NCBI GenBank assembly: GCA_003221035.1
Contig: QHUB01000011.1
Span: forward strand, 1 to 64,000
Length of the DNA stretch: 64,000 bases
Direction of reading: 5' to 3'
DNA from: Gemmatimonadota bacterium
GTDB taxonomy: Bacteria; Gemmatimonadota; Gemmatimonadetes; Gemmatimonadales; GWC2-71-9
Shown here: piece by piece, positions 9,385-54,091 of the stretch
How the letters are laid out: each line of letters starts with the position of its first letter
Numbering within the stretch: position 1 is the stretch's first letter
Made by a program: the position numbers and the translations under genes
The notes under the pieces: model-generated
Databases searched by the model: none
What the model was told of the DNA's origin: nothing
The model's input: only the letters and a program-made list of their open reading frames with translations

Positions 9385-9617
9385 ACAGGGCTCGGGTTCG
9401 CAATAAGCGGGCCAGCCATTGCCGGCGGAGGAGACTCCCAGCCACTATGACGATCGCCTCGAATTTGGGCTTCCCACCCCTCGGCGCTGCGCCCGAATTG
9501 AAGCGCGCGACCGAAGGCTAACTCCCCGCGGCGCTCGCCACGTGCGCGCTGGTGGGCACGGTGTCTGCTGGTTAAGTTCCCCCAACAACCGTTGCGTCCG
9601 TGGTGAGTTACGGCCTA

Positions 9618-9647
9618 TTGCAGCCACGTTAAACAAGTCGCTAAAAA
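9618..9647 (+). promoter_or_regulatory. Candidate metH promoter
   Basis: TTGCAG (9618-9623), 18-nt spacer, TAAAAA (9642-9647). A start about 7 nt downstream would place the hairpin at the very 5' end of the mRNA. Confidence 0.45.
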
Positions 9648-9657
9648 GCCGGGGCCT

Positions 9658-9691
9658 CCCCCGTCCGCATTGGCGACGGGGGCTTTTTTTT
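9658..9691 (+). terminator. Hairpin plus U8 immediately before the metH start codon
   Basis: cccccgtc (9658-9665) pairs with gacggggg (9675-9682) and is followed by eight T (9684-9691), only 3 nt before ATG 9695. An outer pair aaaaagcc (9643-9650) / ggcttttt (9681-9688) could extend it. It has the form of an intrinsic terminator and also holds the only Shine-Dalgarno-like G-run. Confidence 0.65.
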
Positions 9692-52859: not shown

Positions 52860-53480
52860 ATGGCCGCTCCCGCAACCTCGCGCATTCTCCGGACTTTTGA
52901 AGACCGCGCCGACGCGCTCGCGCACTTCTTCCAGCGTGCGGGGGAAGCACCGCGCCTTATCGCGTATGACGACGCGGTTGGGTTGCCGTTAGACCAGGCG
53001 CTCGCCGCACTCGAATGGACCGCGCAAGTCGGTATACTCGCCGCCGAGGATCTTGTTCATGCGGCGCGGCTCGGTCCGGATTCCGCTGCCATCGTCGTCG
53101 AGCGTCGCGATGGCGACGACCGCGTGTTCGTTTACTTCGGTCCACGCATGGACGCGCCGCCAGCCGACCCTTACGAAGGTACCTTGCTCTATGACGAGCC
53201 GGGAGTGCGTTCTTACATTTTTGCGCAACGCGGCCACGCGATCGCGCATTTCCTGAGAGCTACACATGGTTTGGGTGCGGCGCTCAGTCTGTTGTCACGT
53301 CGCGCGCCCGAGTTGCGTCACATCCGTCGCTGGACGCAGACGCTGTTTGCCGAGCCGGCGGTGGGACGCTCGACACAGCTGCTTGCTGGATGGTTCGCGA
53401 CGAGTGGCGCGGGGTTTCTATTCATTCCTGTCGACTCAAGTGAGCCGTTTGCCTACTGCGAAGTGGCGATCGAGGGCTAA
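52860..53480 (+). CDS. Hypothetical cytoplasmic protein
   Basis: 206 residues, mixed alpha/beta (DDRVFVYFGPRMDAPPADPY, VRSYIFAQRGHAIAHFLRAT). No signal peptide or known motif. It stands alone between an exported-protein gene and the structured RNA region. Function unknown. Confidence 0.5.
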   Translation: MAAPATSRILRTFEDRADALAHFFQRAGEAPRLIAYDDAVGLPLDQALAALEWTAQVGILAAEDLVHAARLGPDSAAIVVERRDGDDRVFVYFGPRMDAPPADPYEGTLLYDEPGVRSYIFAQRGHAIAHFLRATHGLGAALSLLSRRAPELRHIRRWTQTLFAEPAVGRSTQLLAGWFATSGAGFLFIPVDSSEPFAYCEVAIEG

Positions 53481-53622
53481 AAAGCGCAATGTGGGAACGT
53501 GCGCGCTGTGGATTCACAACTCCACATCATGTGGACGAGAGCCGGAACAGATTGTAGAGTCCCAGTTTACTCTCCACATGTCATGCACATCGAAGTAAGC
53601 TAACCCGAAGAAACATCGGCAC

Positions 53623-53650
53623 TTGCGCGGTTTTCACAGCCCCCTATATT
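53623..53650 (+). promoter_or_regulatory. Promoter of the structured RNA
   Basis: TTGCGC (53623-53628), 16-nt spacer, TATATT (53645-53650). Predicted start near 53657. Confidence 0.6.
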
Positions 53651-53656
53651 GATGTC

Positions 53657-54091
53657 ACGCGGCTTGGAGGGAAGGGTTGAGACCTGGCGTCTCAACAACG
53701 CCTTCAAGACGGGTCCGAACGGAAATTCCGGGGAGAGCGCCGATGCAACCAAGGGCTCAGGCGCTCGTTGATCCGGGAGTAAACTCACCGGGTCGGACAG
53801 CTGGGGCCAGTCGCGTTGCCCTAGCCACGTCGAAATGGTGCCTCGACGTGCAGTGCGGAAGGTCGGTCCGCGACCCGATCTGACCCGTAGCACTCACATT
53901 GGTGAACTGGGCGACCCGACGGGGTTGCCTAGGGATGGAAGCCGGAGCCTCTGTTTGCCCTACCGAGGACGAACCAGTCCATAGGTGGCGACGGAGAGAA
54001 GAACGAAGGGCGCAAGCCCTCGACTTCGGGTAGCCAATGTGTCGGAGCCCCCGGGCGAGCCTATCGAGCCGTCCCGGGGGCTTCGTGTTTT
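53657..54091 (+). ncRNA. Unidentified structured non-coding RNA, about 435 nt
   Basis: A gene-free stretch of about 620 bases (53481-54101) contains a promoter, several strong hairpins and an intrinsic terminator, and no credible reading frame. Stems seen: gttgagac 53676-53683 with 53689-53696; gagcgcc 53735-53741 with 53760-53766; ccgg/gagt hairpin about 53773-53792; cacgtcga 53826-53833 with 53843-53850; gcgga/tccgc about 53855-53871; ggcgaccc 53910-53917 with 53921-53929; a GNRA hairpin agggc-GCAA-gccct 54007-54020. I could not find the conserved cores of RNase P RNA, tmRNA (no CCA end), SRP RNA or 6S RNA. The rest of the stretch (53481-53622) shows nothing. Confidence 0.7.
54046..54091 (+). 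terminator. Intrinsic terminator of the structured RNA
   Basis: agcccccggg (54046-54055) pairs with cccgggggct (54073-54082), 17-nt loop, then tcgtgtttt. Confidence 0.85.

Follow-up and report, generated by a model that had tools for sequence, protein, structure and literature searches.

What is encoded in the gene-free, strongly folded stretch at 53657–54091 of a contig from a soil Gemmatimonadota genome? New classes of large structured bacterial RNA are rare and have often proved to be ribozymes, RNA–protein machines or polymerase regulators, and Gemmatimonadota are a phylum common in soil. The window, that is, the whole 64,000-nt stretch of DNA analyzed here, lies on contig C73 of a 3.36-Mb Gemmatimonadota-type genome in 113 contigs. 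A first-pass annotation, made from the sequence alone, had read 53657–54091 as a structured non-coding RNA with its own promoter and terminator, belonging to a new RNA class or to a much-diverged known one. The features that delimit it are as follows.

53623–53650, + strand: promoter, TTGCGC (53623–53628), 16-nt spacer, TATATT (53645–53650), read from the sequence and conserved among homologues
53657–54091, + strand: the whole non-coding RNA, about 430 nt from promoter start to terminator tail, from a 59-sequence alignment
54043–54091, + strand: intrinsic terminator, a GC-rich stem (54043–54084) followed by a T-rich tail, from the sequence and the 59-sequence alignment

The promoter claimed by the first-pass annotation (TTGCGC-N16-TATATT) has the correct coordinates and lies within the most conserved stretch of the locus in homologue comparisons; a generic sigma-70 scan gave it no score. 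RNA synthesis is predicted to start at about 53656–53658. The annotation's U-tailed terminator corresponds to the stem and tail listed above, and its GNRA tetraloop to a GCAA loop at 54012–54015. No plausible gene was found between promoter and terminator, and a protein-coding reading of 53657–54091 was rejected: length differences between homologues take any value in bases, and none of the reading frames is prominent, so the region, already described as gene-free, is non-coding. The strong folding that had been noted is also borne out, the forward strand reaching −219.5 kcal/mol against −184.2 ± 6.1 in shuffles (z = −5.8), with z = −3.5 for the reverse strand.

None of the known RNA classes accounts for this locus. 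Rfam 15 (4227 families) produced no match there at the gathering level and only a chance match at a relaxed level (E = 1.4; 17.3 bits, where the cut-off is 42), and a full Rfam 15 scan of 20 divergent homologous loci matched no family. RNase P RNA, tmRNA, SRP RNA and 6S RNA, whose cores the annotation had reported missing, all failed to match at the locus. RNase P RNA and small SRP RNA were rejected for want of a covariance-model match at the locus, and tmRNA since neither a covariance-model match nor tRNA-like ends were found in the window; the genome's own copies of these three lie on contigs C20 (RNase P RNA, 295 bits), C81 (small SRP RNA, 43.8 bits) and C46 (tmRNA, 141 bits), all above cut-off. 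The 6S RNA model (RF00013) matched neither the locus, at a relaxed threshold, nor anything in the whole genome, and membership of OLE, ROOL or GOLLD was rejected on the Rfam 15 scan of the locus and its 20 homologues. The covariance-model check that the annotation had proposed thus returned no hit to a known class and, with the covariation described below, supports its placement of the RNA in a new or much-diverged class. This is almost certainly a genuine new non-coding RNA family. No established family matches it, nor can a known mechanism be assigned; OLE, ROOL and GOLLD, however, already go under the broad label "large ornate RNA of unknown function". In open-access main texts, no description of a comparable Gemmatimonadota structured RNA was found, and Gemmatimonas goes unmentioned in the main texts of the 26-genome and 50-genome discovery surveys.

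Two families of a single order carry the RNA as a conserved, family-wide trait. A DNA search found it in 10/10 genomes of the genus and 84/102 of the family, and iterated profile searches recovered nearly full-length copies together with shorter forms. A covariance model of the core was positive in 81 of 395 phylum genomes, comprising almost all genomes of the window's own family (f1) together with six genomes from another family in the same order (f3). The same model found no match in the sister family (f2), single-contig high-quality genomes included, or in any other family of the 395-genome sample. With a refined core model and relaxed filters, 40 further or unmatched genomes, drawn from f2 and from other families in the class, yielded only noise (E of at least 0.18, at most about 23 bits), a small sample that distant versions could escape. 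The RNA is mostly single-copy per genome; a mobile element was rejected on that ground and because no match occurred in phages or plasmids, nor, for the exact core pattern, in viral contigs.

Alignment of these homologues resolves the RNA into three structured parts ahead of the terminator.

53660–53798, + strand: 5' domain, a hairpin (53660–53711) and a branched domain (53713–53798), from the 59-sequence alignment
53799–53907, + strand: core of about 108 nt with hairpins H1 (53800–53825), H2 (53826–53850) and H3 (53854–53889), from a 46-sequence alignment
53810–53815 with 53869–53874, + strand: pseudoknot 1, H1 loop with H3 loop, from covariation
53837–53841 with 53890–53894, + strand: pseudoknot 2, H2 loop with the strand just 3' of H3, from covariation
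53895–54041, + strand: 3' domain, closing helix 53895–53903/54033–54041 and inner helix 53940–53947/54024–54031, with conserved strands GAUGGAAGCCGGAG and GAGAAGAACGA and a GCAA-capped hairpin (54004–54022), from the 59-sequence alignment

Covariation is strong enough to fix this secondary structure, the two pseudoknots included. Over the whole RNA (59 sequences, 143 consensus pairs), 92.4% of cells are paired, against 36–45% when the partners are slid, and 112 of the 143 pairs carry double changes; the count was scripted on an RNAalifold structure taken from the same alignment and therefore leans towards that structure. The comparison of homologous regions for covarying pairs, which the annotation had put forward as a further check, is accordingly strongly positive, with compensatory changes present rather than absent. 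The core structure was named by hand, since its two pseudoknots are beyond the reach of nested folding. Among 46 core sequences, 96.4% of cells are paired, 28/38 pairs show double changes and 0/500 shuffles did as well; with the second family and the paralogues added, the values are 94.7% and 30/39. Within pseudoknot 1, the end pair (positions 13/79) is G-C in 34 sequences, A-U in 4, U-G in 4, C-G in 2 and U-A in 1, whereas the remaining five pairs are nearly invariant and so provide little evidence by themselves. Pseudoknot 2 shows paired swaps, including U-A in place of C-G: GGUGC/GCACU replaces GGCGC/GCGCC, and one paralogue has GGCAU/GUGCC. The core loops UCGCG, UCCGCGA and GGYGC are near-invariant across the 46 divergent sequences. 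One of the most divergent sequences, locus L081 of genome G031, has UUUUCGC/GCGAAAA as its loop–loop helix. We know of no described architecture that resembles this double-pseudoknot core.

The RNA is modular, running from the 5' domain through the core and the 3' domain to the terminator. Eight paralogues that lack the upstream site array described below (L091, L097, L098, L099, L100, L272, L274, L275) consist of core and 3' domain without the 5' domain, whereas five short promoter-linked forms (L093, L094, L101, L276, L277) are essentially promoter, core and terminator, again without the 5' domain. All of them keep the core, which is thus the common denominator. The paralogues are second copies of the RNA at unrelated sites, and genome G079 has one of each kind of locus (L273 and L091).

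The annotation's statement that the RNA is flanked by unrelated genes needs correction, since the gene immediately upstream is a near-constant partner.

52860–53480, + strand: up206, encoding a protein of 206 aa, candidate protein partner on the basis of adjacency and co-occurrence

At loci with the array, up206 adjoins the RNA in 92 of 96 cases, some of them from the same or close genomes, as against one of the eight array-less paralogues. The gene occurs in 82 of the 395 phylum genomes and the RNA in 81, with 79 genomes having both. Several of the exceptions fall at the ends of contigs, and in genome G031 (locus L081) the RNA is present and up206 was not detected. Within the phylum sample, the up206 family is limited to the two RNA-carrying families. 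Other neighboring genes (htpX, lemA) are not constant from genome to genome, whereas the RNA is, and in f3 the RNA and its array are inverted relative to up206 and still adjacent to it. Single-clade ancestry explains part of this co-occurrence, and a link is better argued from the survival of the adjacency after rearrangement; the RNA and up206 could nonetheless share a clade and a neighborhood without working together, as genome G031 and the array-less paralogues with no up206 beside them would allow. The protein matched no Pfam or NCBIfam family, and its sequence profile found nothing meaningful in the PDB. A confident AlphaFold model (pLDDT 88.4) predicts an alpha/beta protein. Compared with the PDB, this model gave no chain with E under 0.03, the top VIA-align score (Z 5.8 over 70 residues) being too weak to use, and it matched no known fold pointing to RNA binding.

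Similar adjacency and co-occurrence are found in the OLE ribonucleoprotein of Bacillota, where OLE RNA is likewise large, ornate, stand-alone and conserved, with the OapA gene adjacent and almost completely co-occurring (PMC11332333); adjacency to the ole gene is what led to the discovery of OapA (PMC11332333). The two systems differ in phylum and in RNA length (about 600 nt for OLE and about 430 nt here), and the RNAs show no Rfam similarity. Furthermore, OapA is a membrane protein, whereas up206 is a predicted alpha/beta protein without a matching family, and no Pfam family is common to both. The RNA also resembles ROOL and GOLLD, large ornate RNAs of unknown function (PMC12286853), but it has no Rfam match to them and is chromosomal and vertically inherited.

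Between up206 and the promoter lies a second conserved feature, an array of short sites followed by an element that overlaps the −35 box.

53507–53589, no strand assigned: TCCACA/TGTGGA array of about 100 bp, resembling DnaA-box cores, at fixed spacing, with sites at 53507–53512, 53521–53526, 53530–53535 and 53573–53578 and TGCACA at 53584–53589, from homologue upstream regions
53601–53627, + strand: conserved 27-bp element TAACCCGAAGAAACATCGGCACTTGCG, overlapping the −35 box, found by the pattern TAANCCGAAKAAANNNNGGCRCTTGCG

Among 65 non-redundant upstream regions of homologues, the five sites occur at these offsets with frequencies of 51, 95, 62, 88 and 57%, respectively, compared with 0.5% per slot in neighboring DNA, and they precede the element TAANCCGAAKAAANNNNGGCRCTTGCG at constant distances. 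In a scan of 11.3 million contigs, this pattern turned up in 66 from Gemmatimonadota, with exactly one copy in each record, and gave a single further hit that is unrelated. The named records with the promoter element are Gemmatimonadota or Gemmatimonadales metagenome-assembled genomes, Bacterium HR33 among them. Some regulator may read the array. DnaA is the first candidate, and a candidate only, since the sites carry the DnaA-box core: the 6-bp core is common to both, whereas the flanks differ and the full box, TTWTNCACA, fits one of 224 sites.

Retention by two whole families, with the same upstream region and nearly always beside up206, suggests that the RNA probably has an important job. 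It likely acts in trans as a ribonucleoprotein with up206, under dedicated control by the array. The RNA would be expressed from the promoter at 53623–53650 under an array-reading regulator, with DnaA as the first candidate, and would fold into a compact body held by the H1–H3 loop–loop helix and the H2 pseudoknot. The core would then serve as the functional center of the particle and the 5' and 3' domains as accessory platforms, with up206 most likely a dedicated partner or a protein of a shared pathway, as OapA is with OLE RNA. We give roughly an even chance to this reading as a whole, in which a structured RNA of a new class stands alone and acts in trans, has up206 for its candidate partner and is under dedicated control by the TCCACA array. 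A more specific form, in which the output of an RNA–up206 particle is tied to DnaA through the hard-wired array, seems quite unlikely; if true, DnaA would for the first time be seen to control a large ornate bacterial RNA directly. Since the RNA comes with a protein as candidate partner and with an unusual array at its promoter, its function can be tested directly.

Alternatively, the locus may be a replication or cell-cycle element, in which DnaA on the array either switches the RNA or is titrated on the DNA, coupling the locus to initiation, with the RNA acting on cell-cycle genes. For titration on DNA, the datA and DARS loci offer a comparison. DnaA-box cores at fixed spacing across the 65 regions are consistent with this idea, as are one perfect TTATCCACA site in the AT-richer locus L095 and a distance of 61–70 kb between RNA and dnaA in two genomes where a single contig holds both, although dnaA is about 256 and 269 kb away in two others. 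There is also a precedent in Caulobacter, where CcnA, an RNA whose gene is likewise associated with sequences of the replication-control type, acts on cell-cycle genes (PMC8959179). CcnA is 182 nt long, however, and lies within the origin itself, whereas the RNA described here lies away from the GC-skew switch in the single genome where this was assessed. In that genome, Bacterium HR33, sampled stretches place the sign change near 1.0 Mb, at dnaA (1.016 Mb), with the RNA about 70 kb away at 0.947 Mb (G100 and G051, joined scaffolds with runs of N, gave no usable skew), and a replication origin at the locus, an idea prompted by the TCCACA array, was rejected. Given also that the full DnaA box is so rare in the array, which any other DNA-binding protein could read, we regard a replication element as unlikely. 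Beside dnaA in Bacterium HR33 (L213, about 1795–1823), three TGTGGA sites fall within about 30 bp at the GC-skew switch, and these sites are likely the replication origin of that genome.

Another explanation takes the RNA as a functional replacement for 6S RNA, binding RNA polymerase under stress or in stationary phase. Ms1 sets a precedent, binding RNA polymerase in Actinobacteria that lack 6S RNA (PMC9130861, PMC4191392), and the RNA resembles 6S and Ms1 in being a mostly single-copy, conserved trans RNA whose distribution within the order looks complementary to 6S-like matches. Sub-threshold yet convincing 6S matches (best E 1.9e-6, 40.5 bits), with typical 6S motifs in their alignments, occur in 14 genomes of f2, the family without the RNA; f1, the window's own genome included, and f3 have none. 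The absence from f1 and f3 is nevertheless weak evidence, since the Rfam 6S model is insensitive in this phylum and no match reaches its cut-off. Furthermore, the RNA is multi-domain and pseudoknotted instead of forming a long rod opened by a central bubble, it shows no evident promoter mimic, and the Rfam scan was negative. Although we consider a polymerase-binding replacement improbable, the complementary pattern is reason enough to test for one, and the RNA may answer what, if anything, replaces the job of 6S RNA in these families. The core could instead be the active site of a ribozyme or ligand-binding catalytic RNA, given its compact double pseudoknot, its near-invariant loops and its status as the sole part kept by all forms. 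The pseudoknot helices already explain the invariant loops, however, the locus suggests no self-cleavage site or substrate, and no Rfam ribozyme matches, which leaves catalysis a doubtful prospect. A riboswitch-like leader of the downstream gene would fit a structured RNA that ends in a terminator, but that gene, htpX-like, lies on the opposite strand beyond the terminator, which argues that the RNA is not a leader, and downstream neighbors differ between genomes while the RNA is constant; the chance of a leader is slight in the extreme.

Two smaller observations concern other RNAs. In the sister family, 6S RNA-like sequences below the Rfam cut-off (L292–L295, matches near 1501–1684) are probably true Gemmatimonadota 6S RNAs that the Rfam model scores too low. 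Elsewhere in the window, a SAM-alpha (SAM-II) riboswitch at 9590–9664 on the + strand (Rfam RF00521, 49.2 bits against a cut-off of 36), a family described from Alphaproteobacteria, directly precedes a reading frame for a cobalamin-dependent, metH-like methionine synthase.
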